NCBI RefSeq assembly: GCF_020622065.1
Contig: NZ_JAHRYQ010000001.1
Location: 1,674,001 to 1,738,000 of the forward strand
Direction: 5' to 3'
Source: Geothrix sp.
Lineage (GTDB): Bacteria > Acidobacteriota > Holophagae > Holophagales > Holophagaceae
Length of the DNA: 64,000 bases
The notes below the pieces were generated by a model. That model ran no database searches and was not told the DNA's origin. It saw only the letters and a list, made by a program, of their open reading frames with translations. Made by a program: the position numbers and the translations under genes. Below are positions 8,180-28,473 of this stretch, one piece after another. Within the stretch, counting starts at the first letter, position 1. Each line of letters begins with the position of its first letter.

Positions 8180-8201
8180 CGGCCCCCATCCGCGGGGGCC
8201 G
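8180..8201. terminator. Hairpin terminator between ackA and the repeat-protein gene
   Basis: Perfect 8-bp stem CGGCCCCC / GGGGGCCG with a six-base loop. AAAA precedes and CTTTC follows it. It lies between two convergent stop codons and probably serves both strands. Confidence 0.75.
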
Positions 8202-8222
8202 CTTTCATGAAGGACTGAAACG

Positions 8223-8675
8223 CTACTTGCCCTTGGCCTCCAGGGCCTCGCCCTTGCGCTGCACCCGCTCCCCCCGGCGCTCCTTGCGCTCGCCCTGCCG
8301 CTCATTCCGCTCGCCACGGACCTGCTGCCGCGCGCCCTTGGCTTCCTGGGCGGCACCCACGGCTTCACGGCGTTCGCCCTTGCGCTCGAGGGCCTCGCCG
8401 GCCTTCACCTTGCCCTGGGCTTCGAGGGCCTCGCCCTTCTTCTCCATGCGGGCACCCTGCCGTTCCTTGCGCTCGCCCCGACGCTCGTTCCGTTCACCGC
8501 GCCGCTCCTGACGCTCACCCTTGCGTTCCTGGACCTCGCCCCGGCGCTCGATGCGCTCGCCTTTCCGCTCCACCTGCTGGCCCGTCGGCGGGAGGGCGGG
8601 AGCCTGGGCCATGAGGGAGGCGCCGATGAGGCCGGCCGCCACGATGAGAGCCACGCGCTTCGAGGTGTTGGACAT
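8223..8675 (-). CDS. Secreted charged heptad-repeat protein
   Basis: A 150-residue protein of unknown function. It starts with a signal peptide (SKRVALIVAAGLIGASLMAQA) and continues as an almost pure seven-residue repeat of the type E-R-x-G-E-x-x (ERKGERI, ERRGEVQ, ERKGERQ, ERRGERN and so on), interrupted in the middle by an Ala/Val-rich variant stretch. The ATG at 8675 was chosen over an in-frame start 18 codons upstream because GGAG sits 6 bp before it and the signal peptide begins there. The mature part is highly hydrophilic, with Gly in each repeat, so it may be an extended helix, a hydrophilin-like protectant or a surface-binding protein. I recognise no family. Confidence 0.75.
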   Translation of the reverse strand: MSNTSKRVALIVAAGLIGASLMAQAPALPPTGQQVERKGERIERRGEVQERKGERQERRGERNERRGERKERQGARMEKKGEALEAQGKVKAGEALERKGERREAVGAAQEAKGARQQVRGERNERQGERKERRGERVQRKGEALEAKGK

Positions 8676-15076: not shown

Positions 15077-15381
15077 GCCGTCTGTGATCGAAGGGCCTGC
15101 GCCTGGCAAGTCGGACAGTGCCCCCGGCAGGTCCAGGAACAGACAGGGCGGGGCGTCTGAGCCGCAGCATCCACAGGCATGTTCTTAAGATACGCCGAAC
15201 GCTGCGCCCTCATTGCCCTTTGCCTTCGCATCAGCCTGACGATCGAGCCGTCCAAGCACCCCACGCCAATCGAACGGCATCCGGCGCTGTCCGTCGAGGG
15301 TCCCGCTGCGGGGGTTTGAGAGGGAGCGCCTACCCACTCGGGCGGTCCCACTCGCAGATTCGAATCCCGAAGGGATTCATT
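15077..15381. other. Gap without a recognised gene, left of the island
   Basis: No supported gene is seen. An ORF on the minus strand (14983-15402) has no family features. A short inverted repeat, GAATCCC-TTC-GGGATTC on the minus strand, lies near 15361-15377. The stretch next to it looks superficially like a tRNA T-arm but does not fold as one. Confidence 0.4.
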
Positions 15382-15421
15382 CCAGTAAAAAGGCCCCCGC
15401 ACGCGGGGGCCTTTTTACTGG
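15382..15421. terminator. Long palindromic terminator, originally of tRNA-Thr
   Basis: A perfect 40-bp palindrome: CCAGTAAAAAGGCCCCCGC followed by its complement with T5 after the GC stem, in either direction. On the minus strand it begins with the CCA of the tRNA fragment at 15419. It is therefore most simply the native terminator of tRNA-Thr(CGU), now cut off from the intact tRNA gene by the 12.9-kb island. Confidence 0.8.
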
Positions 15422-15466
15422 AGCCAACTACAGGATTCGAACCTGCGACCTGCTGATTACGAATCA
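15419..15466. repeat. attL: 48-bp tRNA-Thr 3' fragment
   Basis: Identical to 28358-28405. On the minus strand it covers the anticodon loop, T-arm, acceptor strand and CCA of tRNA-Thr, then the sequence diverges at 15467. It is the displaced chromosomal 3' end left by integration, as expected for tyrosine recombinases that target tRNA genes. Confidence 0.93.
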
Positions 15467-15571
15467 ATGTGTCAGATATTTTGCCATTTTCGTTCACCTT
15501 CGATCATGTACTTTTATTTATCATAATAACAATACTTACAAACTGCAAGTTTCTACTCCTTGCACGATGAC

Positions 15572-15624
15572 TTACGCTCGCTTACATTCTACTTCGATCA
15601 ATTATGCTCGCTATATGCTCGCTT
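15572..15624. repeat. Repeated GCTCGCT motifs, candidate integrase arm-type sites (left)
   Basis: TACGCTCGCTTA at 15573-15584 and the tandem TATGCTCGCTA / TATGCTCGCTTG at 15603-15624 share the core TAYGCTCGCTW. The same motif recurs at the right end (28293-28312). Placement between att and int is typical for arm-type binding sites; this is inference from repetition and position. Confidence 0.5.
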
Positions 15625-15660
15625 GCGAGCCGAGCTGGGAACGATGAATGGGGGGGCGGG

Positions 15661-16959
15661 ATGGCAGGCAAGAAGGTAGAACCCGAGAAGGAAAAGCTCA
15701 CAACCGCCCGCGTCCAGCGGCTGAAAAAGCCTGGGTACTTCTGGGACAGTGAGTTACCGGGCTTCTGCGTCCGAGTGAACCCGGGCGGGTCCAAGGTCTA
15801 CCTGGCCCGCTACCGGAATGACATGGGCCAGCAGAAATGGGCCAAGGTAGGGAAGCACCCGGTAAACACGGCTGACGAGGCCCGGATCCAGGCCAAGAGC
15901 ATCCTTGGGGATTCGGCCAAGGGGTTGGACCCTGCGGAGACCAGGGACAAGAAGCGCGAGGCCGTCACCGTTCAGAAACTGGTGGACCAATTCACGGAAG
16001 AGCATGTGTCCACCAAGAAGCCCGCCACTGTGCGGAACTACACCAGCCAGCTAAAGAAATTTGTCCTGCCAGTTCTAGGCACGCGGGCCGTGGCGAACAT
16101 CACCACGGCGGATGTGTCAGCGGCCTTGAACAAGCTGCGGAAGACCAAAACCCAGTGGAACCGTGTTTACGCCCTACTCTCCAAGCTCTTCAACATGGCG
16201 GAGCGCTGGGGCCATCGGCCCCCAGGATCGAATCCCTGCCGTGGGCTGGACAAGTTCAAGGAGGAACCCCGGGATCGGTTCCTGACCGATGCGGAACTCA
16301 TGGCCGTGGGCGAGGCTCTGGACACAGAACAGGCCACAGCCGAGCAGAAACTCAAACTTCAGCGGCAGGGCAAGAAGGAAGCGGCCCGTGCCATCGATGC
16401 GGAGTACATCCAGGCCATTCTTGCCATCAAGTTCCTTCTCTTCTCTGGCAGGCGGAAGTCGGAGGCGTTGACTCTGAGGTGGAGCGCCGTGGACATGGAT
16501 GCCCGAACTATCAGGCTTGAGACCAAAACTGGCGGTCTGACGGTAGACATCAACGACCAAATGCTGGAGGTCCTCCAGGCGGCACTGGCGCACCGAATCC
16601 TAGGCAACCCCTATGTGTTCCCAGGCAGGCCTGAGAAACCCAAGCCCGGCGAGAAAAAGCCCGAGCCAAAGCCCTGGGTCAATCTGATGAAACCCTGGGA
16701 GCGGATCCTGGAGACCGCTGGGGTTTGGAAGAAGGGCGGCAACGACATCATCAAACCCACGATCCACGACATCCGCCGAACCTTTGGGACGGTGGGAGCC
16801 GGTGATGTGGAGTTGCCCCATGAAACGATTGGCAAGGTGCTAGGCCACAAGCAGACCAGCACAACCGCCATTTACGCCCGGCTCGCAGGCAAGAAGCGAG
16901 CGGAGGCCAGCGCAAAGATCGGCTCCGCGATGGCCAAGAAACTCAATAAGCAAGCCTGA
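15661..16959 (+). CDS. int: Tyrosine recombinase (integrase) of the island
   Basis: P4/phage-type integrase of 432 residues. A DUF4102-like N-terminal arm (LPGFCVRVNPGGSKVYLARYR), a core-binding SAM-like domain (about 100-190) and a C-terminal catalytic domain are seen. Catalytic residues: Arg265 in SGRRKSE, His369 and Arg372 in HDIRR, His396 in LGHKQ and the nucleophile Tyr405 in AIYAR. The ATG at 15661 begins after a G-rich stretch; an in-frame upstream start is possible. It lies about 195 bp from attL and is directed into the island. It should catalyse the integration into tRNA-Thr. Confidence 0.95.
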   Translation: MAGKKVEPEKEKLTTARVQRLKKPGYFWDSELPGFCVRVNPGGSKVYLARYRNDMGQQKWAKVGKHPVNTADEARIQAKSILGDSAKGLDPAETRDKKREAVTVQKLVDQFTEEHVSTKKPATVRNYTSQLKKFVLPVLGTRAVANITTADVSAALNKLRKTKTQWNRVYALLSKLFNMAERWGHRPPGSNPCRGLDKFKEEPRDRFLTDAELMAVGEALDTEQATAEQKLKLQRQGKKEAARAIDAEYIQAILAIKFLLFSGRRKSEALTLRWSAVDMDARTIRLETKTGGLTVDINDQMLEVLQAALAHRILGNPYVFPGRPEKPKPGEKKPEPKPWVNLMKPWERILETAGVWKKGGNDIIKPTIHDIRRTFGTVGAGDVELPHETIGKVLGHKQTSTTAIYARLAGKKRAEASAKIGSAMAKKLNKQA

Positions 16960-17027
16960 CCACCACAAACCCACTACCCCTCAGCATGGGGTTCATGCCA
17001 TCTATCACCCCTTTTCATGGAGACACC

Positions 17028-17222
17028 ATGACCACTAGCACCATCACCCCCTCCACCCTTGATCTGCGGGACGAACTCAACCGCGTGGCCTCGTCCGTTG
17101 ATGCCGTGGCCAACCTCCTCCTCGGTGCCATCGAGGACGGCAAGGAGCCATCACGCGAGGAGGTGAGCGATGCCATCACGCTCCTGGACCTGGTAGCACG
17201 GCAGGCACGGGCTGCCGCGTGA
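17028..17222 (+). CDS. Small hypothetical protein (64 aa) of the island
   Basis: Unrecognised acidic helical protein (LDLRDELNRVASSVDAVANLL). GGAGACACC precedes the ATG. Its stop overlaps the GTG start of the next gene (GTGA), so the pair is probably co-translated. Confidence 0.6.
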   Translation: MTTSTITPSTLDLRDELNRVASSVDAVANLLLGAIEDGKEPSREEVSDAITLLDLVARQARAAA

Positions 17223-17956
17223 CCACCACCAAGCCAACAGGTATCGAGCGGGCCGTGGATGCACTCATCGCGGCCCACAAGGTATATCTGGCATCTGGAG
17301 CCCCGCCAAATGCACGGCTTGGGTTCCGGCAACACAAGGGGTTCACGCGCCAGGATGCGGAACGGCAGGTTCGGGACATCGTTGAGCGGTTCCAGGAATC
17401 CGAGGAAGGCCACCAGAACGAGAAGATCAAATCCAGCCTCCGCGCTCTCCTGGAGGCCATCGACGGTTTGCCAGACGAGGCTATCCAAAGGATCGAGTGG
17501 ATCCGGCTGAGAGGGCCAGCAGCTACGGGTCACCACCTGGGCCCCATACCCCTTGCAGTTCCGCTTCTCCGGGGGGCCACTGATCGCGCACTCAAGGAAC
17601 GGTGGGACAAGGTGCGAAAGACTGGAACCCATGGCCCTCCTCAATGGGGGTTGAAAGAGAATCCGACTGCGATGGAGGTCATGTGTAGCAGCCTGTGGCT
17701 ACTTCACTACGATTGGGCCGGAGTGCCTACGCCACCCAGGAGCCATCCGGGCGGGGGCGGCCTGGTCCATGAAGCGGAGTATGGCCCCTGGGAAACGATG
17801 TTGCTCGGGTGCCTTGAGGCCATCGGACTCCCGGGGGCCATGGAGGGCGACATCCGGCGCAACATCTTGAGGGCCGTCCATCGAGAGCTTGCTCGGCCTG
17901 CCGGAGAGCGGGTTGTGAAGCGGAAGCCCGGCAGGAAGGCAAAGCCGCGACAATAA
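17219..17956 (+). CDS. Hypothetical island protein (245 aa)
   Basis: Unrecognised. The N-terminal 90 residues are helical and charged, the middle is rich in Gly/Pro and Trp, and the C-terminus is strongly basic (KRKPGRKAKPRQ), which suggests nucleic-acid contact. The GTG start overlaps the preceding stop. No catalytic motif is evident. Confidence 0.6.
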   Translation: MTTTKPTGIERAVDALIAAHKVYLASGAPPNARLGFRQHKGFTRQDAERQVRDIVERFQESEEGHQNEKIKSSLRALLEAIDGLPDEAIQRIEWIRLRGPAATGHHLGPIPLAVPLLRGATDRALKERWDKVRKTGTHGPPQWGLKENPTAMEVMCSSLWLLHYDWAGVPTPPRSHPGGGGLVHEAEYGPWETMLLGCLEAIGLPGAMEGDIRRNILRAVHRELARPAGERVVKRKPGRKAKPRQ

Positions 17957-18058
17957 GAGCCAATGCTGACGCAGATTTGGGCCATTGAATGACCCGTGCG
18001 AACGCACGAACTGCCATAGCAAACCTGCGTAGTTAGTGCCCGATCCAACACTGATGCT

Positions 18059-18096
18059 CCCTCTTGAGCGCGGTTAGCGCCGCTGACTCAAGGGGG
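18059..18096 (+). promoter_or_regulatory. Hairpin that covers the ribosome binding site of the AlpA-like gene
   Basis: Ten base pairs (18059-18068 with 18087-18096, one G-T pair) enclose a second 4-bp stem. The 3' arm contains GGGGG of the Shine-Dalgarno site GGGGGA (18092-18097), 5 bp before the ATG at 18103. Folding would hide the site, which suggests translational control. A Rho-independent terminator is less likely because no T-run follows. Confidence 0.5.
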
Positions 18097-18102
18097 ATTC
18101 TT

Positions 18103-18315
18103 ATGAACTACGAAGCACTGTTAACCCGACGCGAGGCCGCGTCCTTCCTTGCCATTAGCCCACGGACGCTGGAGCTTTGGGCCATCCGTGGAGGTGGCCC
18201 CGCCTTCGTTAAGGTTGGCCACCTCTGCCGGTACCGGATGGCAGACCTCCAAGCGTGGACCGAGGCCCGTACTCGTCAGCACACTCGGGACACCCCCTCT
18301 GGGGGGGTGGAGTGA
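18103..18315 (+). CDS. AlpA/excisionase-like helix-turn-helix protein
   Basis: A 70-residue winged HTH of the MerR-like family that includes AlpA and phage excisionases: LLTRREAASFLAISPRTLELWAIRGGGPAFVKVGHLCRYRMADLQAWTEAR. Such proteins either activate the integrase gene or act as recombination directionality factors. The ATG follows GGGGGATTCTT. Its stop overlaps the next start (TGATG). It heads the replication gene cluster of the island. Confidence 0.85.
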   Translation: MNYEALLTRREAASFLAISPRTLELWAIRGGGPAFVKVGHLCRYRMADLQAWTEARTRQHTRDTPSGGVE

Positions 18316-18494
18316 TGTGCGAACAGCAACGCGACACCTTCAGCTGCGGCCCAGCGATCCCCGTCCCTCAGTTCCGGGTTAGCACCCCGGATGGCGTGGT
18401 CTTACTCCTGCCATCTGAGCTGCGAATCGTCATGGATGAAGGTCGCGATTGGCTTGATGGCCTCGGCCAAGGGGGAACCCATGGGGAAAATTGA
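18315..18494 (+). CDS. Small hypothetical protein (59 aa)
   Basis: Unrecognised. It lies between the AlpA-like gene and the primase-like gene and overlaps both by start or stop codons, so it is supported mainly by operon architecture. It has no obvious motif apart from FRVSTPDGVVLLLPSEL. Confidence 0.55.
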   Translation: MCEQQRDTFSCGPAIPVPQFRVSTPDGVVLLLPSELRIVMDEGRDWLDGLGQGGTHGEN

Positions 18495-18786
18495 TTTCAA
18501 GCACATCGCGCGCGAGGCACTGGACCAGTCCCTACCCCTACTGATGGAGTTCCTGCCTGGTGGCCGCATCCAGGGCCAGGAGTACATCGTCAGAAACCCA
18601 ACCCGCAAGGACCGGAGGGCGGGGAGCTTCAGCATCAACCTCATGACGGGGCGTTGGTGCGAGTTCGCTACCGGGGAGCGGGGTGGAGACCTCATCTCCC
18701 TAGTGGCCTACATCAAAGTGCTTCCTCAAGGCGAGGCGGCCCGTGAACTGGCCCGCATGATGTGGGGTAAAAATGCAGCCCACTGA
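18481..18786 (+). CDS. Primase N-terminal-like protein (101 aa)
   Basis: The sequence pattern G-x-EYIVRNPTRKD-RAGSFSINLMTGRWCEFATGERGGDLISL is that of the DNA-entry or zinc-binding-like region of phage and plasmid primases, which usually precedes TOPRIM and helicase domains. Here it is a separate gene that overlaps the TOPRIM-helicase gene by 14 bp. GGGGGAACCC precedes the ATG. No cysteine cluster is present, so a zinc site is not supported. Confidence 0.7.
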   Translation: MGKIDFKHIAREALDQSLPLLMEFLPGGRIQGQEYIVRNPTRKDRRAGSFSINLMTGRWCEFATGERGGDLISLVAYIKVLPQGEAARELARMMWGKNAAH

Positions 18787-20830
18787 GCCCAGCCTCATCA
18801 TGCCCGCCCGCAAGGGTGCCCCATCCCTGCCGCTCTCATGGCCCCGCCTCGGGAAACCGTCCTCTGTGTCTGTCTACAGGAACGATGCGGGTTTCCCCCT
18901 TTTCGCTGTGCTGAGGTTCGACCCTCCAGGCGGGCACAAGATCATCCGCCCGGCCACTCTATGGCAGATCCCAGATGGAACGATGGCATGGCAGCTCAAG
19001 GCGGCCCCTGCCCCGCGTGCCATCTACAACCTGCACAAACTGGCCAAAAACTCGAAGGCCCCCGTCCTGGTTGTCGAGGGTGAGAAGGCCGCCGATGCCG
19101 CATCCAAGCATTTTCCCGATTGGGTCGTCACCACCAGTGGGAGCGCCACCAGCGCAACGGCCGCGAACTGGAGCCCGCTGGCGGGCCGTAGGGTGGCCAT
19201 CTGGCCCGATGCCGACGATCCGGGCCGCAAGTATGCAGAAGAGGTCCACCAGGCCCTCCAGGCCCTGGGAGTGGCCAGCGCGGGCATCGTGGCACTTCCC
19301 GATGGTCTGCCGGAGAAGTGGGACTTGGCAGACCTGGAGACCAGCCCGGTTCCTGATCTGGATGCAGAGGCGGCGCTCGCCCTTATCGAAGAGGCCGCCA
19401 GAGAGAGGTGCATGGCCAGGGAACACCCCACGCTCCCCCTACCCTCTGCCAATGGCGGAGGTGCTGGACCATGGATCGTGGGAGATGTTCGACGCATGCT
19501 GACCGAATCCCCTCCCCCGGTTCGGTGGCTGGTGGAGGGCCTCATCCCCGGTGGCGTGCCGGGTGTTCTGGCGGCGAGGGCCGGGGCCGGGAAGTCCATG
19601 ACTGCCCTGTCCATCGGCATGGGCCTCGCCTCCGGTCTGGGTGTGATGGGGCGGCCCGTGAGCATGGAGGAAGCCCGTGGCGTCCTCTTCGTGGGCCTTG
19701 AGGATGACGAGGCGGAGTTCCATAGGCGGTTAGCCCGGGGCCTTGAGCTCCTGAAAGAAGATCCGGAGTGGACACAGGGCCGTGAGGGTGGCTTGCTCCG
19801 GCGGTTGCGCCCTCTGTTCCCGAACCGCACCTCTGGTGAATCCCTCTACCTTGAGGACCAGTGGCGGAACCTGGCAGACATGGCCAGTGCGATCCCCGGC
19901 GGCTGCGGACTCATCATTCTGGACACCCTGGCGCGGATGGCCGATGGAGACGAAAACAAAGCCTCAGACATCCGCCCATTCAATGAGGCCGTCTCGGCTC
20001 TGGCCCAGGCGACCGGGGCCGCCGTGCTGTCCATTCACCATGTCGGCAAGGGGAACGACGCGCCTTCAGACAAGAAACTCTGGCAACGGCTCCACCCGGA
20101 GGCCTTGCGAGGATCCAGCGCGGTGGAGGCTGCGGCCAGGTTCATCATCCAAATGGCCGCCCTGTCGCCCTCAGAGGCCCAGGCCACGGGCCTGGAAGTG
20201 GACCGGGCACTTAGGGGCGGGTATGTTGCCCTGCACTTATCCAAGATGAGTGCCTCGGAGAAGGGCGACACCATCCTGCTTGAGCGCAGGCAGGCGGACG
20301 AACCCGGAGCGGGGTTCCTCGGCTTGCACCCTGATTCCGAACGGATCCTGACCTTGATCCAGGGGGCCTCCGCCGTCCTCAAACTGACCAAGCGGGACGA
20401 GGTATTGCTGGCCATCGCGGAAGCCGGGGGACTGGGGGGCCTGGACCCCAAGGTGGCGGCCCCGTTCATCTGGCCAGACTCAGGGAACCCCAGGGGACAG
20501 TGGGACAAATCCCTGCACGCCCTCCGCAAGGCCGGACTCTTGGGGGAGATTCGCCTCACAGACCTTGGCCTGGCCAAGGTGGAGACGCTGGGTTCTGGAT
20601 CTCCCTTCCCTTCCGGTTCCCTAGGGGGATGGAAGGGAAGGAAGATCACCCCCAACCCGGGCGAATCGTCTTCCGGGCGGAAGATCGAGGATGGCCACAT
20701 CGAGTCAGAAGGCCCGAAAGCATTGGATCTTCCGGGCGGAAGATGGGGGGCGGAAGAAGCGGAAGATCCGACCTCCTTGGTGGCCGGGGCGATCTTCCAC
20801 CCGGAAGATGCCCGAGAGGTCGCCTTGTGA
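18773..20830 (+). CDS. TOPRIM-RepA-type primase/helicase, replication protein of the island
   Basis: A 685-residue protein. A TOPRIM-like part (about 60-210) holds VLVVEGEKAADAA and WPDADDPG, the acidic metal-binding sites of primases. A RecA/RepA-like ATPase follows (about 235-480), with Walker A RAGAGKS, Walker B GLIILDTLARM and IHHVGKG. The C-terminal 150 residues are low in complexity and rich in Ser/Gly. Together with the preceding 101-residue protein it would form a replication initiator or helicase for the excised element. Palindromic repeats lie in its last 170 bp. Known hexameric RepA helicases are shorter; the fused TOPRIM part is typical of phage satellites and plasmids. Confidence 0.85.
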   Translation: MQPTEPSLIMPARKGAPSLPLSWPRLGKPSSVSVYRNDAGFPLFAVLRFDPPGGHKIIRPATLWQIPDGTMAWQLKAAPAPRAIYNLHKLAKNSKAPVLVVEGEKAADAASKHFPDWVVTTSGSATSATAANWSPLAGRRVAIWPDADDPGRKYAEEVHQALQALGVASAGIVALPDGLPEKWDLADLETSPVPDLDAEAALALIEEAARERCMAREHPTLPLPSANGGGAGPWIVGDVRRMLTESPPPVRWLVEGLIPGGVPGVLAARAGAGKSMTALSIGMGLASGLGVMGRPVSMEEARGVLFVGLEDDEAEFHRRLARGLELLKEDPEWTQGREGGLLRRLRPLFPNRTSGESLYLEDQWRNLADMASAIPGGCGLIILDTLARMADGDENKASDIRPFNEAVSALAQATGAAVLSIHHVGKGNDAPSDKKLWQRLHPEALRGSSAVEAAARFIIQMAALSPSEAQATGLEVDRALRGGYVALHLSKMSASEKGDTILLERRQADEPGAGFLGLHPDSERILTLIQGASAVLKLTKRDEVLLAIAEAGGLGGLDPKVAAPFIWPDSGNPRGQWDKSLHALRKAGLLGEIRLTDLGLAKVETLGSGSPFPSGSLGGWKGRKITPNPGESSSGRKIEDGHIESEGPKALDLPGGRWGAEEAEDPTSLVAGAIFHPEDAREVAL
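20669..20809. repeat. Three palindromes ATCTTCC-N4-GGAAGAT (iteron-like)
   Basis: Copies lie at 20669-20684 (TCTTCC-GGGC-GGAAGA, outermost bases changed), 20727-20744 (perfect, spacer GGGC) and 20792-20809 (perfect, spacer ACCC), with centres 59 and 65 bp apart. Half-sites GGAAGA and GGAAGATC lie at 20752 and 20761. They sit in the 3' end of the replication gene, which is a common place for replication origins or autoregulatory sites. Confidence 0.6.
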
Positions 20831-21216
20831 GCCGGGTCATGGCCTCCCAAGTCTTTCTCCTGGCCCGGGCGGATGTGAGGTGGAGGGGGGACGGCGAACG
20901 CATCTACGGGTCTCCAGCCGAGGCCCTGGACCCGTCTGGGTTGAACATGGCCCGCGACCTCAAATCCGAGCTGATCGCCCTGCTGGGCATAACGGAGGAG
21001 CAGAGGGGGACCATCCTGCGTCGGGACCCCAAGGTGGATCTGGAGGGCCTGGCCCGCTACCGCCAATGCCTGGAGATTTGGGAGGAATTTACCCGGCAGG
21101 AGCAGGCCATCCTCCAGGGGCGGGCCTTGGGCTTGGTGAATCTGAAGAACCTCGCAGTCATCCGAAGGTTCAGCGGCGGTTTGGTGGGAGCCTGTTGGCA
21201 GGAATACAGGGAATGA
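20827..21216 (+). CDS. Hypothetical island protein (129 aa)
   Basis: Unrecognised. It starts with GTG overlapping the preceding stop (GTGA), with GAGAGG 8 bp upstream; an ATG at 20839 is the alternative. The middle is helical (LKSELIALLGITEEQRGTIL), and no catalytic motif is visible. It is the last gene of the plus-strand replication operon. Confidence 0.6.
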   Translation: MSRVMASQVFLLARADVRWRGDGERIYGSPAEALDPSGLNMARDLKSELIALLGITEEQRGTILRRDPKVDLEGLARYRQCLEIWEEFTRQEQAILQGRALGLVNLKNLAVIRRFSGGLVGACWQEYRE

Positions 21217-21236
21217 CCCACTCTGCCGGGCAGTCG

Positions 21237-21512
21237 TCAGTCCTCCTTGGGGAGAGTAGTGGAACCCGACTGCGGCGACGGAGTGTTCTCCGCCTGTGCG
21301 AGCCTGGAACCCTTCTCCATCTCGGCCTGGAGCCAGGCTTCCATCCCGTCCTCGACTTCCTGCATCGGATTCGGCAGGTCGGCCCCACCCGAACTCGCGT
21401 CGGGCGCGGTCGTGGACTTCGCGCTGGATCGCTGGGTAGACGCGATCAACGGTCCTTCGAAGAACATCGGGTCGTTCGCCGGAACCGATCCTTTCCAGGT
21501 GATCTTGCCCAT
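21237..21512 (-). CDS. Small hypothetical protein (91 aa)
   Basis: Unrecognised. GGAG lies 9 bp before the ATG. The C-terminal half is acidic and polar, rich in Ser, Gly and Glu. It is convergent with the replication operon. Confidence 0.45.
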   Translation of the reverse strand: MGKITWKGSVPANDPMFFEGPLIASTQRSSAKSTTAPDASSGGADLPNPMQEVEDGMEAWLQAEMEKGSRLAQAENTPSPQSGSTTLPKED

Positions 21513-21552
21513 AGCTGTAATCTCCGTCCGATGTGAAACCTTTTGCCTCGTC

Positions 21553-21732
21553 CTACTTGGGTTGCCCGGTCTTCGGGTCCAGGTAGCACTCGGGGCGCAG
21601 CTTCCCCTCAGCGAACAGCTTGGCCATTCGCGCCTTCACCCGCTCGTTTGCCCGGTTGGATCGCTCCACGGCTGAGTTCTCACTGTCTCCAGTAGGCTTC
21701 GGCGGCATCTGGGTTTGCGGCGTTTTGGGCAT
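21553..21732 (-). CDS. Small hypothetical protein (59 aa)
   Basis: Starts at ATG 21732, picked because AAGGAGG lies 5 bp upstream; the longer frame is unlikely. The sequence has a Pro/Gln-rich N-terminus and the helix SNRANERVKARMAKLFAEGK. Unknown function. It precedes the 91-residue gene on the same strand by 40 bp. Confidence 0.55.
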   Translation of the reverse strand: MPKTPQTQMPPKPTGDSENSAVERSNRANERVKARMAKLFAEGKLRPECYLDPKTGQPK

Positions 21733-21979
21733 AGCGGCCTCCTTGGCTGGAATCAAATTCATTCCCGTCTCTTTGCTTTGCCGCGTGAATGGACAACGGA
21801 TGCTTACCCGTGGGTTGGGCATCCTCCCCTTCATCCCTAACTCTGCCCCGGCAGGGTAAAGGCTCATCTTCATTTTCCATTTTACTCTTATTTACTGTGC
21901 GGCACTACAGACTTCGCCCCGCCACCCAAGAGTCAAAGAGTGGCGTGCAGACTAACTTTCCAAGCCCTACCATACGGGC

Positions 21980-22519
21980 ATGAAGAAGTGCGTCTGGTGC
22001 TACGGCAGGCCCGTCATGGAGGAGGGGTTCCACCACTGCTACCCCTGCCTCCTGGAACTGTCCGAGCGCAACGCCCGATGGTTTGCCTGCGACACCGGGG
22101 GACGGTGCCTGGAGTGTCGGAAGCGGCCCCGTGTGGAGGGGAAGTCCAGGTGCAGGCGATGCCTCGGCATGAAGGCAGACAACATGGCCCGCAGGCGATC
22201 AGAACTGGCCCAGGAAGGCCGCTGCACCGAATGTGCAACCCACCTCACCCCCGAAGAATCCCGGCGCAATCACGGCCTAAAGCTGAAGGTCTGCGAGGCC
22301 TGCCGAGCGAAGAAGAAGGGTTGGCAGAGGGACGCGGCAGAGCGTCGGAGGCACGGCTGGGTTCCGATCCACCGGGCCTGGCATAGGCGGCCCAAGCATG
22401 GGCCAATGAGGGTCACCCATCGGGGGGCATGGGTGCCCGCAAGGGCCTTGATGCCATCCAAGGATGTGCGGGGGCGGGTTTATCTCACTCTGGCGAAGCA
22501 GCTCGGGGGCGATGTCTAA
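21980..22519 (+). CDS. Cysteine-rich zinc-ribbon-like protein
   Basis: A 179-residue, very basic protein with at least four CxxC pairs: CVWC, CYPC, CLEC, CRRC, CTEC and CEAC. It probably binds several zinc ions and nucleic acid. The C-terminal part is rich in Arg, Trp and His. I see no HNH nuclease motif. The position between the replication region and the R-M operon fits a regulator or accessory defence factor, but this is only inferred. Confidence 0.65.
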   Translation: MKKCVWCYGRPVMEEGFHHCYPCLLELSERNARWFACDTGGRCLECRKRPRVEGKSRCRRCLGMKADNMARRRSELAQEGRCTECATHLTPEESRRNHGLKLKVCEACRAKKKGWQRDAAERRRHGWVPIHRAWHRRPKHGPMRVTHRGAWVPARALMPSKDVRGRVYLTLAKQLGGDV

Positions 22520-22562
22520 GAGGCCCAGGTCCCACTACCGCTCGGGGTGACTCGAAAATGCC

Positions 22563-24875
22563 CTACCCCACCGACTCGTACAAGAATCGCTGGAATCCCG
22601 AAAACGCATCCCGGATCTCCTCCACGCTGCCCAGGTCAGCCACGGCATCTGAAATAGCGTCGTGATACTTCAGCCTGAGCAGGGGCGAGAGCTTCTCCTG
22701 GTCGAGTTCGTCCACGCCCTGCTTCACATACTGGGCCAGGACGAACTCCAGGAAGGCCCGCTGCTTGTCGGAGTAGCTGTCGTGGATGAGGACCTTGGCC
22801 TGGTCGGCACGGGCCTCACGGGTTCGGGGGCTCAGGGCGAAGGCGACATAGGCCAGCACATCGAACAGGTCGCTGTTCTCGGCCTCGATGATCCGCTGCA
22901 TCTCGGTCATGGTGTCCCGGCCATAGCCCTGGTCCGAAAGTCCAGTCAGGAGGGCCTTCCGGGTATCAGGCTTGCTCCAGATGGCCCTCAGTTCGGCCTC
23001 GTTCTTGAAGAAGGCTGGCAGGGCCCCGAACAGATTCTCCAGGAACTGCGCCGCCGACATGGGCCGCCCGTCCGCGCTCCAGAAGGTGGTGGACAGCATG
23101 TGCTGGATGGTCCGTTCCTTCCCATCCGCAAGCTTGATGCGGGTCTTTTGCTTCCGCTCAGGCTCCTCCCCCTCGGGCTTGGGATCGGGGGCAGCCCGTT
23201 CCACCTGCCGCGATGGGCCTTTCCCGTCTTCTGTTTCAAGCTCCTCCGGCTCCCCGTCCCACTCGGGATCGTTGAAGTGGTGGTGGGCCTGCACGAAGTC
23301 GTAGATGGTGAAGTAATCCTTGCCCTCGAAGAGCCGCGTGCCTCGCCCGATGATCTGCTTGAACTCGATCATGGAGTTCACAGGGCGCATGAGGACGATG
23401 TTGCGGACATTCCGCGCATCCACCCCGGTCGATAGCTTCTGGGAGGTGGTCAGGATGGTGGGGATGGTCTTTTCGTTGTCCTGGAAGTCGCGCAGGTACT
23501 GCTCGCCCAGGGCCCCATCGTTGGCCGTGACCCGGACGCAGTAGAGGGGGTTGGTGCTGCGGCTCACCTGGTTGATGAGATCGCGCACCGCCAGCGCGTG
23601 GGGTTGGCTGGCGCAGAACACCAAGGTCTTCTCATCCTGGTGGATCAGGTCCATGAAGAGCCGCACCCGATAGTCTTCGCGCTCCTTGATCTCGATGATC
23701 CGGTTGAAGTCCGACTCGGTGTAGCGCTTCCCTTCTTCGGCCACCCCTTCCAGCAGGATGTCGTCCGGCGTGTAGACATATTCGTCCAGCGTGGTGCTGA
23801 TCTGCTTCACTTTGAAGGGCGTGAGGAAGCCATCGTTGATGCCTTCCTTCAGCGAATAGGCGAACACCGGCTCCCCGAAGTAGGCGTAGGTGTCCACATT
23901 GTCCGTGCGCTTGGGTGTAGCCGTGAGGCCCAGCTTCACCGCCGGGGCGAAGTAGTCGAGGATGCTCCGCCAGGTACTCTCGTCCTTGGCCCCGCCCCTG
24001 TGGCATTCGTCGATCACGATGAAGTCGAAGAAGTCGGGCGGATACTCCCCGAAGTAGGGCGTGTCACCGGGGCCGCTCATGAAGGTCTGGAAGATGGTGA
24101 AGAAGATGCTGCCGTTCTTTGGGACCTTGCCCTTCTTGCGGATCTCATCGGGGGCGATGCGGACCAGCGCGTCCTCCGGGAAGGCCGAGAAGGCGTTGTA
24201 GGCTTGGTTCGCCAGGATGTTCCGGTCCGCCAGGAAGAGGATGCGGGGGCGCCGGGTGGGTTCCCCGCTAAGGCTCCACCGGCTCTGGAAGAGCTTCCAG
24301 GCGATCTGGAAGGCGATGAAGGTCTTGCCCGTGCCGGTGGCCAGGTTGAGCAGGAGGCGGTCCTTCCCGGCTGCGATGGCTTCCAGGGCCCGCTCGATCG
24401 CGATGTCCTGGTAGTAGCGGCCCGGGTGGGAGCCGCCCTTGTCCTCAAAGGGCACGGCGGCGAAGCGGTCCCGCCAGGCATTCGCTTCGGCATAGGTCCA
24501 GTCCCAGAGTTCATCAGGGCTGGGGAAGGCGGGCACATCCCCTTCCTGCCCCAGGGCCATGTCCATGCCGTAGATTGCCTGGCCGTTGGTGGCGTAGGTG
24601 AAGCGGACCGCCAGCTTGGCGGCGTAGCTCTTGGCCTGGCCCACGCCCTCGGTGTAGGGCTTGTCCCAGGCCTTGGCCTCCACCACGGCCAACTTGGTGT
24701 TGCGGTAGACCAGCACATAGTCCGCGATCTCAGCCTTGGCCCGCTGGCCGCCGCCCTGAAGCCGCCCCTGGGTGATCCCGTATTCCCGCAGGATGCGGCT
24801 GCCCTCGACCACGCCCCACCCCGCCGCCTTCAGCGCGGGGTCGATGTGCTCAGCTCGGGTTTCGGCTTCGTTCAC
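22563..24875 (-). CDS. hsdR: Type I restriction endonuclease subunit R
   Basis: Motor and nuclease subunit of 770 residues. The PD-(D/E)xK nuclease lies near the N-terminus (AEIADYVLVYRNTKLAVVEAKAW). The SF2 translocase has Walker A ATGTGKT, DECH box (IDECHRGG), LGLTATPKR and the motif VI region IIGRGTR. A linker rich in Glu and Pro precedes the C-terminal HsdM-binding helical domain. The GTG at 24875 starts 13 bp beyond the hsdS stop and is favoured over an upstream start inside hsdS because AGGG-CGAAG precedes it. It would cut unmethylated foreign DNA. Confidence 0.95.
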   Translation of the reverse strand: MNEAETRAEHIDPALKAAGWGVVEGSRILREYGITQGRLQGGGQRAKAEIADYVLVYRNTKLAVVEAKAWDKPYTEGVGQAKSYAAKLAVRFTYATNGQAIYGMDMALGQEGDVPAFPSPDELWDWTYAEANAWRDRFAAVPFEDKGGSHPGRYYQDIAIERALEAIAAGKDRLLLNLATGTGKTFIAFQIAWKLFQSRWSLSGEPTRRPRILFLADRNILANQAYNAFSAFPEDALVRIAPDEIRKKGKVPKNGSIFFTIFQTFMSGPGDTPYFGEYPPDFFDFIVIDECHRGGAKDESTWRSILDYFAPAVKLGLTATPKRTDNVDTYAYFGEPVFAYSLKEGINDGFLTPFKVKQISTTLDEYVYTPDDILLEGVAEEGKRYTESDFNRIIEIKEREDYRVRLFMDLIHQDEKTLVFCASQPHALAVRDLINQVSRSTNPLYCVRVTANDGALGEQYLRDFQDNEKTIPTILTTSQKLSTGVDARNVRNIVLMRPVNSMIEFKQIIGRGTRLFEGKDYFTIYDFVQAHHHFNDPEWDGEPEELETEDGKGPSRQVERAAPDPKPEGEEPERKQKTRIKLADGKERTIQHMLSTTFWSADGRPMSAAQFLENLFGALPAFFKNEAELRAIWSKPDTRKALLTGLSDQGYGRDTMTEMQRIIEAENSDLFDVLAYVAFALSPRTREARADQAKVLIHDSYSDKQRAFLEFVLAQYVKQGVDELDQEKLSPLLRLKYHDAISDAVADLGSVEEIRDAFSGFQRFLYESVG

Positions 24876-24888
24876 GGTCTTCGCCCTG

Positions 24889-26091
24889 TCACAGGTCGCC
24901 GTTGAAGGCGCGGTGAAGGAGGGACTGCTTAAGCTCATCCAGGGCTTCTAGCTTCTGAGAGTAGTTACTAGCCAGCTTATCGCATTCATCTTGTAATGCC
25001 TGGATGGCTTCCGCTATCTCCAATTGCGTCGCGACCTTTGTTGGGTAAGACACAATCACATCGCCAATTTTGGAGGGAGAAGTGTGTCGGACCTTTACCC
25101 CAGAGCCACTTGCGTGAACGGCCGCACGAAGTCCTTTGGTGTTGAAGACATGGAAGAAGAACTCGTTACACCAGGGAACACCTGGATTCCCATTAACAAG
25201 CCCCAATCGCTGGTTGTGTAAAAACCTATCAGACGCTGGAACCAGGATAGGGCTGCCCAGCAGGCCAGCGGCCTGTTCTGTCATCGCAATGAGAAGATCG
25301 CCTTTGGACAAGATGAAACCATCAGGGACCTCACCAATGTAATACTTCTGCTTCTCACCCCTATCTCGGTAGCCACCAGCCTCGATAAAATTGCCTGGAG
25401 TAAGCAAGACATACCTTCCCTCGGACCTGAAGTGCTCCCCTTGGAATGCGAATCCATGTTTGATGCTGCAAAGCTCCGAGAGCGGGGCTGAACGCCATCC
25501 TGATTTATTCCCGGACAGCTTGGACTCTCGTTCGCTCTCGAACACCTCATATGCGTTCTGAAGGTTCTTCTCGGCGTTGGCCTTGGCGGTGTCAATGCCC
25601 TCGAAAGCTATGTTTAGGATGGTGACGATACGCTGCTGCTCCGAGAATGGTGGGATAGGAAGCTGAAGTGCCTTGATGAATGGGACTTTCACCCCTTGTA
25701 CCGTGGCTCCGGTTCCCTCCCCAACAATCAGGTGCGCCACTCGCTTGAACCAGTAGTAGAGAAACCGGGTAGAAATTTTGGTCGGGTCATTCGGAATGAT
25801 TCCACGCAGGTCCTGATTTATCGCAGTGTCCTGCTTAATAATGCAGACCTTCCCCAGGCCAACCCTGGTTGCGATCACCACATTCCCGCTTGGGATTATG
25901 TTTGCGGCACTATTCCTAACGGCTTCCTCGGTGATGCTTCGTTCTGTTTCTGTGACGATGTCCGATCGCAGATCCCGCACTGTGGCCCATGGAATCTGCC
26001 CCTCGTAATATCTGGCGATTGAAATTGAGGGTGTCCCGCCTCCAACGACTTGGCAGACATCTCCCAAATTCTTCATAGGCCATGGGCTCAT
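24889..26091 (-). CDS. hsdS: Type I restriction-modification specificity subunit S
   Basis: Target recognition subunit, 400 residues, with two target-recognition domains. The first begins MKNLGDVCQVVGGGTPS; a conserved spacer (LPIPPFSEQQRIVTIL) and helix follow; the second starts with LSELCSIKHGFAFQGE, and the C-terminal helix contains EALDELKQSLLHRAF. The ATG overlaps the hsdM stop (ATGA); a second Met lies six codons in. The base composition is visibly more AT-rich than the flanking genes, as is common for horizontally exchanged specificity genes. The recognised DNA sequence cannot be read from protein. Confidence 0.95.
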   Translation of the reverse strand: MSPWPMKNLGDVCQVVGGGTPSISIARYYEGQIPWATVRDLRSDIVTETERSITEEAVRNSAANIIPSGNVVIATRVGLGKVCIIKQDTAINQDLRGIIPNDPTKISTRFLYYWFKRVAHLIVGEGTGATVQGVKVPFIKALQLPIPPFSEQQRIVTILNIAFEGIDTAKANAEKNLQNAYEVFESERESKLSGNKSGWRSAPLSELCSIKHGFAFQGEHFRSEGRYVLLTPGNFIEAGGYRDRGEKQKYYIGEVPDGFILSKGDLLIAMTEQAAGLLGSPILVPASDRFLHNQRLGLVNGNPGVPWCNEFFFHVFNTKGLRAAVHASGSGVKVRHTSPSKIGDVIVSYPTKVATQLEIAEAIQALQDECDKLASNYSQKLEALDELKQSLLHRAFNGDL

Positions 26092-27545
26092 GACAACAAA
26101 CCCCGGATGGTCGCCAGGACCTCGGCGCTCTCTGCATCTAGGGCCGCGATCTCATCGAGGATGTCCTCGGGACTCCGAAGGGTGACTTCCTCGCCACCAT
26201 TGGGGTTCTTCACCGATAGATCGAATGTGACCTGGTCGAGGGTGTTCATGGGCACGGACCAGGACTTGGGTGAGTCTGCGCGGGTCTTCTGCAAGGCCAG
26301 AAACTCAACCAGGTCTTCGTCGTTCAGGGGGTTGGTTTTCCCCATGTTCCGCCCCGGCCGAAGCTGGTAGTACCAGACCTTCTGGGTGGGCGCGCCCTTC
26401 TCGAAGAACAACACCACAGTCTTCACGCCCGCGCCCTGGAAGGTGCCGCCAGGGCAGTCTAGGATCGTATGGAGGTTGCACTCCTCCAGCAGCTTCTTCC
26501 GCAGGGACACGGAGGCGTTGTCCGTGTTGCTGAGGAAGGTGTTCTTAATGACGATGCCCGCCCGGCCCCCGGCCTTCAGGCTCTTGATGAAGTGCTGGAG
26601 GAACAGGTAGGCCGTCTCGCCCGTCCGGATGGGGAAGTTCTGCTGGACCTCCTGGCGCTCCTTCCCCCCGAAGGGCGGATTGGCCAGCACAATGTCGTAG
26701 CGGTCCTTCTCCTGGATGTCGGCAAGGTTCTCGGCCAGGGTGTTCGTGTGGATGATGTTTGGGGCCTCGATGCCGTGCAGGATCATGTTCATGATCCCGA
26801 TGACATAGGCCAGGCTCTTCTTCTCCTTGCCGTAGAAAGTGCGCTTCTGGAGGGTGGTCAGATCCGCCGTGGTGAGCCCATGCTTCTTCTTCAGGAATTC
26901 GAAGGACTCGCAGAGGAAGCCCGCGGACCCCAAAGCCGGATCGTAGATGCGCTCCCCGATCTTCGGCTGCACAACCTGGATGATGGCCCGGATTAGCGAC
27001 CGAGGCGTGTAGTACTCGCCACCGTTGCGCCCGGCATTGCCCATGTTTTTGATCTTCGCCTCGTAGAGGTGGGAGAGTTCGTGCTTCTCCTTCTGAGAGT
27101 GGAACCGCAGCTCATCCACCAGATCGATGACCTCGCGCAGGTTGTAGCCGCTATGAATGCGGTTCTTGATCTCACCGAAGATCTCTCCGATCTTGTATTC
27201 CGTGGTGTTCGGCCCGCTAGCCTTCTGCTTGAAGGCGTGCAGGTAGGGGAAGAGTTTCAGGTTCACGAAGTCGCGCAGGTCGTCGCCGGTCAGGGCGGCG
27301 TTGTGATCCAGCTTTCCGTCCTTGCCCTTCGGTGCCGCCCAAGTCCCCCAGCGGTAGGGCTTGTCGAGGATGAAGGCGTAGGACTTCCCCTCCAGGGCCG
27401 CTTCCGTGGCCTTGTCCTGCTCCAAGGCATCGAGATACTTCAGAAACAGCAGCCAAGAGGACTGCTCGGTGTAGTCCAACTCGCTGGTGCACCCCGCGTC
27501 CTTGCGCAGGATGTCGTCGATGTTCTTGAAGGTCTGCTCAAACAT
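26088..27545 (-). CDS. hsdM: Type I restriction-modification methyltransferase subunit M
   Basis: N6-adenine methyltransferase of 485 residues. The N-terminal HsdM domain (MFEQTFKNIDDILRKDAG) is followed by the SAM-binding motif I, DPALGSAGF, and the catalytic NPPF motif in VLANPPFGG. The second Gly of the usual DPA-GSGGF motif is Ala here. The ATG at 27545 is chosen over a longer frame because of family length and GGAG upstream. It is first in the operon hsdM-hsdS-hsdR. Confidence 0.95.
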   Translation of the reverse strand: MFEQTFKNIDDILRKDAGCTSELDYTEQSSWLLFLKYLDALEQDKATEAALEGKSYAFILDKPYRWGTWAAPKGKDGKLDHNAALTGDDLRDFVNLKLFPYLHAFKQKASGPNTTEYKIGEIFGEIKNRIHSGYNLREVIDLVDELRFHSQKEKHELSHLYEAKIKNMGNAGRNGGEYYTPRSLIRAIIQVVQPKIGERIYDPALGSAGFLCESFEFLKKKHGLTTADLTTLQKRTFYGKEKKSLAYVIGIMNMILHGIEAPNIIHTNTLAENLADIQEKDRYDIVLANPPFGGKERQEVQQNFPIRTGETAYLFLQHFIKSLKAGGRAGIVIKNTFLSNTDNASVSLRKKLLEECNLHTILDCPGGTFQGAGVKTVVLFFEKGAPTQKVWYYQLRPGRNMGKTNPLNDEDLVEFLALQKTRADSPKSWSVPMNTLDQVTFDLSVKNPNGGEEVTLRSPEDILDEIAALDAESAEVLATIRGLLS

Positions 27546-27979
27546 GGGGCGGGTCACTCCAGGGGCGGAAGCGAGATGTAGCAAGGCGCTGAGTGCATCC
27601 GGCGGTAAGAAGAAGCTACCAGGGGCGGAATTGATTGGGCGCTTGGTCAGGGTATCGATTGTTACTGGTTCCCTCGATCACATCGTGCCCATCCACCCTC
27701 CATGCACGCATGACCAGGGTGCTTCGTGATGGGCCGGTTCTCTGAACCCTCCTTGATCGACATGTTGAAAAATGCCGTGGAGGACGCGAGAGGCAAGAGC
27801 CCGGATTCTTTTCAGAGCCGCGATGAAAGAGGGCTGGATTGTTGACCCCACCCCCCGGGGGGCCTTGGACCCTGCCCCCGGGGGGTCGCAGGCGGGCGTT
27901 CCTGAGCCTCTTCTTGCCCCTGCCTAGCCATTCATGGTGGTTCGCTCTGTGAGCGTATAATTCCCCCGTTGGGGCTCTC
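27546..27979. other. Gap upstream of hsdM with direct repeats, GC palindromes and a -10 box
   Basis: The exact 12-mer CCAGGGGCGGAA occurs at 27559-27570 and 27619-27630, 60 bp apart, in front of hsdM. Two self-complementary tracts, CCCCCCGGGGGG (27851-27862) and CCCCCGGGGGG (27875-27885), could form hairpins. A perfect TATAAT lies at 27956-27961. A 38-codon ORF (27729-27845, plus) starts with MGRFSEPSLIDMLKNAVED but is not well supported. Confidence 0.45.
27956..27961 (+). promoter_or_regulatory. TATAAT -10 box of the small membrane-protein gene
   Basis: Perfect sigma-70 -10 hexamer, about 18 bp before the ATG at 27980. No good -35 hexamer is visible at the 17-bp spacing, so the promoter is only partly supported. 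Confidence 0.4.
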
Positions 27980-28183
27980 ATGATGGACACAGACCAGAGC
28001 ACGAACCGGGAAACATATCAGGGCATGAAACCCGATACGGGTTTTCCCTGGGCAATCTTCCTGGTCTTCGGGTTCCCAGTCTGTATCTTCGCCATCCAAC
28101 TTCTGTCGATGATTCTAGGTGGTCCCTTGGCTGCGGTGGCGGTCATCGCGAGCCTGGTCTATTTATGGCGGTCCACCCGCTAG
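27980..28183 (+). CDS. Small membrane protein (67 aa) at the right end of the island
   Basis: Unknown function. Hydrophilic N-terminal 23 residues precede two closely spaced hydrophobic segments (FPWAIFLVFGFPVCIFAIQL and ILGGPLAAVAVIASLVYLW). GGGG lies before the two consecutive ATGs; the second ATG (27983) is an alternative start. It faces away from hsdM. Confidence 0.6.
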   Translation: MMDTDQSTNRETYQGMKPDTGFPWAIFLVFGFPVCIFAIQLLSMILGGPLAAVAVIASLVYLWRSTR

Positions 28184-28292
28184 GCTCCGCCCCAATGGCC
28201 CCGCTTCTCAAGTGGTGGCGACCCTGCGGGGTCAGTGGCCATCAAGAATAAAGGTTCGAGACCGGCAAGGAACATTCGATTCTGGCCACCAG

Positions 28293-28312
28293 CGCTCGCT
28301 ATACGCTCGCTT
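28293..28312. repeat. Repeated GCTCGCT motifs, candidate arm-type sites (right)
   Basis: Tandem GCGCTCGCTA and TACGCTCGCTTT, the same core as at 15572-15624 near the left end, and about 45-65 bp from attR. The presence of the motif at both termini supports a role in integration or excision. Confidence 0.5.
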
Positions 28313-28321
28313 TCAGAACAA

Positions 28322-28343
28322 AGGCCACCAGCGACGGTGGCCT
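28322..28343 (-). terminator. Island-supplied terminator of tRNA-Thr
   Basis: Stem AGGCCACC / GGTGGCCT with a six-base loop; on the minus strand it is followed by TTTGTTCT. It lies 14 bp beyond the 3' end of the intact tRNA gene and is inside the island, so it replaces the native terminator left at 15382. Confidence 0.65.
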
Positions 28344-28357
28344 AAGTGTTGTATTGA

Positions 28358-28405
28358 TGGAGCCAACTACAGGATTCGAACCTGCGACCTGCTGATTACG
28401 AATCA
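28358..28405. repeat. attR: 48-bp copy inside the intact tRNA-Thr
   Basis: Exact match to 15419-15466. It covers the 3' 48 nt of the tRNA, so the incoming element restored a functional gene on insertion. Confidence 0.93.
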
Positions 28406-28433
28406 GCTGCTCTACCAGCTGAGCTAAGTTGGC
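28358..28433 (-). tRNA. tRNA-Thr (anticodon CGU)
   Basis: A 76-nt tRNA with encoded CCA. The acceptor stem GCCAACT / AGTTGGC, D-stem GCTC / GAGC, anticodon stem GCTGA / TCAGC with loop TTCGTAA, and T-arm GCAGG-TTCGAAT-CCTGT all pair. The anticodon CGT reads ACG codons. The gene is the integration site of the island; its 3' part is the att core. Confidence 0.97.
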
Positions 28434-28473
28434 GCTGGCCTCTCAGTTTGCCCTGGGAGGCCGTGGGAATCAA

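Follow-up and report, generated by a model that had tools for sequence, protein, structure and literature searches.

A repeat cluster at the 3′ end of a RecA-fold helicase gene as a probable replication origin of an integrative element in Geothrix sp.

The helicase gene of an integrative element in Geothrix sp. ends in a cluster of palindromic repeats. What do these repeats do, and why do they lie inside a coding sequence? We addressed this question in a genome stretch of 64,000 nucleotides, hereafter the window (Table 1). The element measures 12.9 kb, encodes an integrase and is tRNA-borne, being bounded by direct repeats of which one lies in the 3′ end of tRNA-Thr. The initial annotation had spoken of an island, and the 48-bp direct repeat at tRNA-Thr bears this out. 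The small HTH_17 protein is presumably AlpA/Xis-like. A type I restriction-modification system (HsdR, HsdS, HsdM; 22563-27584, - strand) is carried as cargo, and two further genes of the element (17219-17956 and 21980-22519) had no match in Pfam, NCBIfam or PHROGs. The gene following the helicase likewise had no family in these three collections, and a candidate assignment as TubC-docking-like protein was dropped for that reason. No replication-initiator family was matched among eight element proteins scanned with Pfam, nor by the gene after the helicase in NCBIfam and PHROGs.

Table 1. Positions of element genes, attachment-like repeats and repeat features within the window.
Feature	Position	Strand	Remarks
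attL-like direct repeat	15419..15466	.	48 nt, 100% identical to 28358-28405; copies 12,939 bp apart
Tyrosine integrase	15604..16959	+	Pfam Phage_integrase 4.3e-15, Arm-DNA-bind_3 1.1e-13
Small HTH_17 protein	18064..18315	+	Pfam HTH_17 7.6e-9
Probable primase N-terminal part	18391..18786	+	Own ORF overlapping helicase; NCBIfam PRK07078 2.1e-4, DnaG 0.088, both far below cut-off
Primase/helicase: DUF6371/Toprim-like, RecA-fold (AAA_25, RSF1010 RepA-like), C-terminal winged-helix	18773..20830	+	Pfam, Foldseek
C-terminal winged-helix, coding segment	20285..20602	+	AlphaFold2 domain model, structural match 5x80_C
Inverted repeat, arms 20598-20614 and 20631-20647	20598..20647	.	17-nt arms, one mismatch (94% complementary), 16-nt spacer
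Core CCCTAGGG	20619..20626	.	TA step at exact centre of inverted repeat; CC-TA-GG class common to loci
Palindrome 1, GTCTTCCGGGCGGAAGAT	20668..20685	.	One mismatch; codon phase 2
Palindrome 2	20727..20744	.	Exact; codon phase 1
Palindrome 3	20792..20809	.	Exact; codon phase 0
Direct half-sites CGGAAGAA (20751-20758) and CGGAAGAT (20760-20767)	20751..20767	+	Sequence reading
Gene after helicase	20827..21216	+	GTGA overlap with helicase stop; no family match
attR-like copy, inside tRNA-Thr 3′ end	28358..28405	.	tRNA-Thr = 28358-28433, - strand

The helicase protein matched AAA_25 (7.2e-37), DUF6371 (2.1e-8) and, below cut-off, Toprim (0.0055) in Pfam. Foldseek placed its model beside T7 gp4 (6n9x_C, 4.7e-17) and RSF1010 RepA (1g8y_A, 8.4e-15; TM 0.86 by target length). 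The probable primase N-terminal part had matches in 5 of 17 other loci, within the helicase ORF in three of these, and is continuous in frame with the helicase ORF in L016, L141 (= L018) and L135 (= L022). The two overlapping ORFs of the window (18391-18786 and 18773-20830) may reflect a natural split or a frameshift. The C-terminal winged-helix, modelled alone by AlphaFold2, had pLDDT of about 90 or more for residues 41-100 of 106. It superimposed on MarR-type 5x80_C with Z 9.8 and 1.8 Å over 68 residues, in a comparison where Z 7-8 is commonplace, and its model gave nothing in Foldseek at E 0.001 or better. The assignment is based on this second structural comparison (Z up to 9.8), the model and the sequence pattern. 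In the AlphaFold2 model of the helicase, the confident C-terminal domain extends to about residue 606, and pLDDT is under 50 over residues 608-685. The tail encoded by the repeats is thus predicted to be disordered, and the repeats begin at the end of the folded protein: the repeat segment starts where the winged-helix coding sequence ends.

The initial annotation had reported three palindromes and two half-sites near the end of the gene. We confirmed their coordinates; the palindrome centres are 59 and 65 bp apart, and all five sites lie within the final 163 bp of ORF 18773-20830. The palindromes encode the peptides SSSGRKI, DLPGGRW and IFHPEDA, which are mutually unrelated. Because three palindromes occupy three codon phases and yield unrelated peptides, the repeated unit is DNA, not peptide; the annotation had suggested that selection here may act on DNA more than on protein, since the encoded C-terminus is of low complexity. 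That reading overlooked the inverted repeat with its CCCTAGGG core, whose arms hold tandem GGAAG units, and the winged-helix, which is likely to recognise the repeats.

Sequence rich in GGAAG/CTTCC is simple, and the tail is predicted to be disordered. Both would be expected if the cluster had arisen by chance or as low-complexity sequence while the protein tail drifted, or if it were a REP-like repeat dispersed over the genome. The counts argue otherwise. Repeated 7-mers in the 300 bp past the winged-helix scored 104, against a mean of 22.9 (sd 7.5, maximum 74) in 300 dinucleotide shuffles. The palindrome with up to three mismatches had 10 matches in the window, against a shuffle mean of 2.36 and a largest value of 8 (100 shuffles). 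With up to two mismatches it occurred at 21 places on the forward strand of the 3.35-Mb genome: 2 exact, both at the helicase end; 2 with one mismatch, one at the helicase end and one elsewhere; and 17 with two mismatches, all elsewhere. A dispersed REP-like repeat was ruled out by these numbers, since the genome has no other exact copy and just a single other site with one mismatch. Only 1 of 2549 windows of the 64-kb stretch, near 8226, exceeded the repeat score of the helicase end. The region concerned (8201-8520) is the sole one to do so, and holds two stretches (8265-8319 and 8453-8520) of imperfect 21-bp tandem units. Since the cluster is far above the shuffles, is paralleled in relatives by clusters of different sequence at the corresponding position, and has counterparts in the viral groups described below, chance is the least probable of the explanations considered here.

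Taken as single-stranded nucleic acid, the inverted repeat at 20598-20647 had a folding energy of -17.7 kcal/mol (z -4.1), which none of 200 shuffles equalled. Such strong folding could also belong to an RNA-level element, a terminator or attenuator hairpin that ends the operon. A search for intrinsic terminators (GC-rich hairpin, then T run) found no match on the + strand in 18300-22500; two terminator-like matches lie on the - strand, against a shuffle mean of 2.6. Rfam identified tRNA as the sole family in 15300-28500. The terminator and RNA-family readings were ruled out by these two scans. The inverted repeat, moreover, lies inside coding sequence in the window, L016, L018, L019 and L021, and we give any RNA-level role a very slight probability.

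A comparison of homologues had been set beforehand as the test that could refute an origin at this site. The helicase protein, used as query, was matched in 18 of 150 relatives; at the family level 11 of 77 genomes had a match, and at the phylum level 6 of 396, with the window's own genome counted each time. One relative came from a scan of genome contigs, and a viral-contig scan with the window helicase protein alone found nothing. We compared 16 loci (window included), and later 18 by adding two viral contigs. The helicase is the only window gene matched in all 17 other loci; the missing genes say little, because several loci are short. The top 7-mer-repeat window of the locus overlapped the 300 bp past the winged-helix in 13 of 16 loci and missed it in L023, L025 and L051. 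Repeats in both orientations were found at the equivalent place in most of the 18 loci. Their unit is GGAAGAT in the window, GGAAGG in L016, L018 and L020, GGAACA in L019, GGATGG in L021, GGTTGTC in L026, GGTAGGC in L053, GGTAACG in L051, L145 and L146, and GTGTGAC in L022 and L052. The cluster is within the coding sequence in the window, L016, L018, L019 and L021, and past the stop in, for example, L020, L022 and L024. Across related loci the cluster stays put and the helicase stop shifts; the layout recurs among relatives, and the repeat sequence changes between lineages. The comparison thus found the repeat architecture kept at the same place, but the exact palindrome not conserved.

The inverted repeat and its core also recur. 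Inverted repeats beat shuffles (p ≤ 0.02) in 15 of 18 loci, the exceptions being L020, L022 and L146; Fisher's combined value is 7.7e-16 if the loci are independent, which they are only in part. A core of the form CC-N0-2-TA-N0-2-GG was present in 15 of 18 loci and absent from L018, L021 and L025 (expected 0.244 per region, p 2.4e-7). Because the loci are partly related, p values combined over the 18 are too optimistic. In 10 of the 15 core-bearing loci the TA step of the core lay no more than 2.5 bp from the centre of the inverted repeat, and in 5 of these exactly on it; in the remaining 5 loci it was off-centre. Past the helicase of L139 (= L036, G003:C11), a perfect 26-bp inverted repeat with a 5-nt loop lies beside a second CCCCCCTTTAGGGGGG dyad.

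Perfect palindromes fit dimeric regulators, the segment sits between two overlapping genes, and an HTH_17 protein is encoded nearby. The palindromes might accordingly serve as an operator or copy-control site, at which Rep or another DNA-binding protein regulates the helicase or later genes, or handcuffs, with replication starting elsewhere. However, a scan for the sigma-70 consensus found no promoter-like site in 18300-22500. An ORF related to the following gene was found in only 2 of 17 other loci, whereas the cluster accompanies the helicase, and regulation does not predict the shared CC-TA-GG core. We consider this explanation unlikely.

Viral contigs provided a larger sample. The best 80 of 246 matches in one viral-contig search, together with 65 from a second, gave 131 further helicase loci, which formed 72 clusters at 70% identity; they were sampled by a peptide-pattern search, not at random. 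Recurrence of 7-mers reached its locus maximum at the helicase stop in 35 of the 72 clusters, against 5 of 374 control stops (p 1.4e-26), the controls being taken from the same loci at the ends of other ORFs 150 aa or longer. The helicase stop was within the top 3% in 62.5% of the clusters, against 3.5% of control stops. About half of the 72 clusters had no repeat cluster at the helicase stop by the strict criterion. The dense repeats in the other half suggest that the marking of a replication start at this place may be widespread.

In the 72 viral clusters the core occurred 1.89 times per kb close to the stop, against 0.95 times elsewhere. For three control patterns, with order or TA/AT changed, the densities were 0.98 and 1.10, 2.25 and 2.05, and 2.22 and 2.17 per kb near the stop and elsewhere, respectively. 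The core was present in 40 of 72 stop regions and the controls in 25, 38 and 44, with base rates that differ among the controls. We also compared k-mers without bias in 90 loci (the 72 viral clusters plus the 18 related loci, which were not clustered). CCCCTA/TAGGGG was the top 6-mer (36 against 9.0 expected, p 2.5e-13) and CCTAAAGG/CCTTTAGG the top 8-mer (14 against 0.44 expected, p 6.5e-13). The remaining leading k-mers were mostly similar C-run/G-run words, plus some iteron words.

Among eight named records chosen from tblastn matches, the cluster was the top window of both the stretch and the whole genome in two. Rhizobium phage RHph_Y3_1 has GGGAACG repeats and a CCCTTCTAAAGAAGGGG hairpin that falls outside the strict core pattern; phage ct3Oc712 has TGGGACA repeats and CCTATAGGG. 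No cluster was found at the helicase stop in the other six: Microbacterium phages Nebulous and Neferthena, Burkholderia phage Mica, Serratia phage Serbin, Wolbachia phage WO and IncQ2 plasmid pRAS3.2. In pRAS3.2, which has a separate RepC, 257 of 461 windows outscored the repA stop. The primase part is Toprim-like in the window and RHph_Y3_1 and Prim-Pol in ct3Oc712, and no fused primase was matched in L145; the layout was constant. Cumulative GC skew showed no turn at the cluster in either phage (minimum near 6.2 kb and cluster near 12.9 kb in RHph_Y3_1; minimum near 28-30 kb and cluster near 14.3 kb in ct3Oc712), in a test confounded by gene direction. In the window, GC was 0.55-0.75 in every 40-bp window of 20500-20900, and an AT-rich stretch was therefore absent. 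This absence and the GC-skew result argue against a textbook theta origin.

Which part of the protein would read the repeats? In the closest group, shared GGAAG tracked winged-helix identity more than ATPase identity. The window and L020, with GGAAG in common, have 65% identity in the ATPase and 64% in the winged-helix; for the window and L019 (GGAACA) the values are 71% and 51%. Against such a match, L145 and L051 have GGTAACG in common despite 30% winged-helix identity. We tested covariation in 59 loci (45 viral clusters with rank under 0.03 and 14 of the 18 related loci; L016, L023, L025 and L027 were left out). Repeat similarity had a partial rank correlation of 0.069 with C-terminal similarity when the ATPase was controlled for (p 0.005), and of 0.010 with ATPase similarity when the C-terminus was controlled for (p 0.34). 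The distance from Walker A to the stop showed a weak difference, with a median of 312 aa in helicases with a cluster (rank under 0.03, n 29) and 287 aa in those of rank 0.1 or more (n 15; p 0.005). This comparison used 48 of 72 viral clusters, those with a recognisable Walker motif (24 were dropped), and left out 4 of intermediate rank. The identities and correlations above are suggestive, though not strong, evidence that the repeats are recognised by the helicase's own C-terminal winged-helix. Three viral contigs (L089, L162 and L204) have similar iterons, of GCGGAGAC or GCGGAAGC type, and helicases that score as only distantly similar, a case of possible convergence or origin exchange.

Winged-helix centromere binders were among the structural matches (pNOB8 AspA 4rs8_A, Z 8.9; 5k5q_A, Z 8.6). 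Iterated sites are typical of partition, packaging and recombination loci, and the cluster could be a centromere-like or other such site of the element. Yet the AspA matches were no better than many MarR-type repressors, and no structural, packaging, partition or terminase-like family was found by Pfam among the eight element proteins scanned. The cluster, besides, accompanies the helicase in both phages and islands. A site of this kind is in our judgement highly unlikely.

Segment 20598-20809 is probably the replication origin of the excised element. The initial annotation had left open an origin or an autoregulation site, and the origin is now the best supported reading, on grounds of the integrative element, the RepA/T7-gp4-type helicase, the predicted disordered tail and the clusters of relatives. 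We favour it because the palindromes fill three codon phases in sequence that encodes a disordered tail past a confident winged-helix, and because the repeat maximum, inverted repeat and core recur at the helicase end of relatives. Further reasons are that stops in the viral clusters are repeat maxima far above control stops, with k-mer enrichment; that iteron similarity follows the C-terminal domain and not the ATPase, a small effect; and that there are precedents in SaPI, SCCmec Cch2, the PICI pri-rep-ori and the pRN1 stem-loop. Against it, the cluster is missing from six of the eight named relatives examined and, by the strict criterion, from about half of the viral groups, the match between winged-helix and repeat is weak and has exceptions, and the core is missing or off-centre in some loci.

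A possible course of initiation is as follows. The C-terminal winged-helix of the helicase would bind GGAAGAT-type iterons, and the inverted copies round the core would place two helicase rings in opposite directions. The CCCTAGGG core would then open or extrude as a hairpin, and the primase part would prime there before a host polymerase takes over. Tail residues 608-685 would then be incidental, encoded by an origin that had spread into the gene end.

The segment may bear on how the RepA-/T7-gp4-like helicases of these elements and phages deliver their ring to an origin without a separate initiator. We tentatively propose, with somewhat less than even confidence and from sequence comparison, that RecA-fold (RepA/T7-gp4/Twinkle-type) helicases of phages and islands have widespread, so far undescribed self-addressed origins. 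Such origins would consist of lineage-specific iterons, situated within the 3′ end of the helicase's own gene or just past it and read by the fused winged-helix, around a shared CC-TA-GG dyad core for opening and priming, whatever the primase type. The titles, opening parts of abstracts and passages that we surveyed in the open-licence literature contained no earlier description of such origins. If the proposal is true, a scan for repeats at the helicase stop together with the CC-TA-GG dyad would predict the origins of many uncharacterised phages and islands. Bacteria for which genetic tools are scarce, e.g. Holophagaceae, would gain minimal replicons, and the match between winged-helix and iteron would become accessible to study as a protein-DNA code in evolution. 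There may also be a connection to the phage-derived, Twinkle-like origin that drives run-off replication in Bartonella.

The Bartonella amplification peak has been mapped next to a phage-derived Twinkle/T7-gp4-like helicase, alongside DNA that is mostly non-coding and variable in size; no iterons are mentioned for it in the parts of that report consulted (PMC2697382). RSF1010/IncQ plasmids resemble the element in having a homologous RepA-type hexameric helicase (1g8y_A, with the TM value given above). Their oriV combines iterons with inverted repeats, according to passages of a published account (PMC4234260). The IncQ iteron binder, RepC, is a separate protein, whereas the winged-helix of the element is fused to the helicase. 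P4 alpha and pRN1 ORF904 have primase, helicase and winged-helix in one protein, as does the element. P4 alpha has repeats and a helicase of another kind. Passages on pRN1 describe an essential stem-loop of ~100 nt downstream of the gene, conserved in structure and not in sequence (PMC4234260). The helicase of ORF904 belongs to SF3, and the pRN1 origin is described as lacking iteron structure; the element has a RecA-fold helicase, iterons and an inverted repeat.

The closest parallels are in islands of Staphylococcus and E. coli. Origin iterons of SaPI and SCCmec Cch2 lie directly 3′ of the initiator helicase gene and are bound by its C-terminal domain, as passages of the report state (PMC7581432). 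For Cch2, the isolated C-terminal domain binds AAGTG iterons downstream of its own gene, and the site is the preferred priming start (PMC7581432, same passages). Both the helicase family and the primase of Cch2 differ from those of the element. A PICI pri-rep-ori segment drove plasmid replication in the functional test excerpted from PMC6092414. SaPIs and PICIs, as portrayed in these passages, are like the element in being islands with an integrase and a small HTH protein, and in having an origin or short iterons immediately 3′ of, or in, the helicase gene end. The element may therefore act in a manner like the SaPI/PICI Rep-ori, with another helicase class and without the AT-rich stretch. SaPI Rep has a DUF927 or D5/Primase_Cterm domain (PMC7581432, in part), neither of which was found in the Pfam scan of the element's RecA-fold (RSF1010 RepA/T7 gp4) helicase. 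The SaPI/PICI origins are described in the same excerpts with an AT-rich region between two iteron sets, and the element has a GC-rich CC-TA-GG dyad core. Because helicase class and core differ, the element is set apart from the SaPI/PICI Rep-ori despite the similar place and logic.
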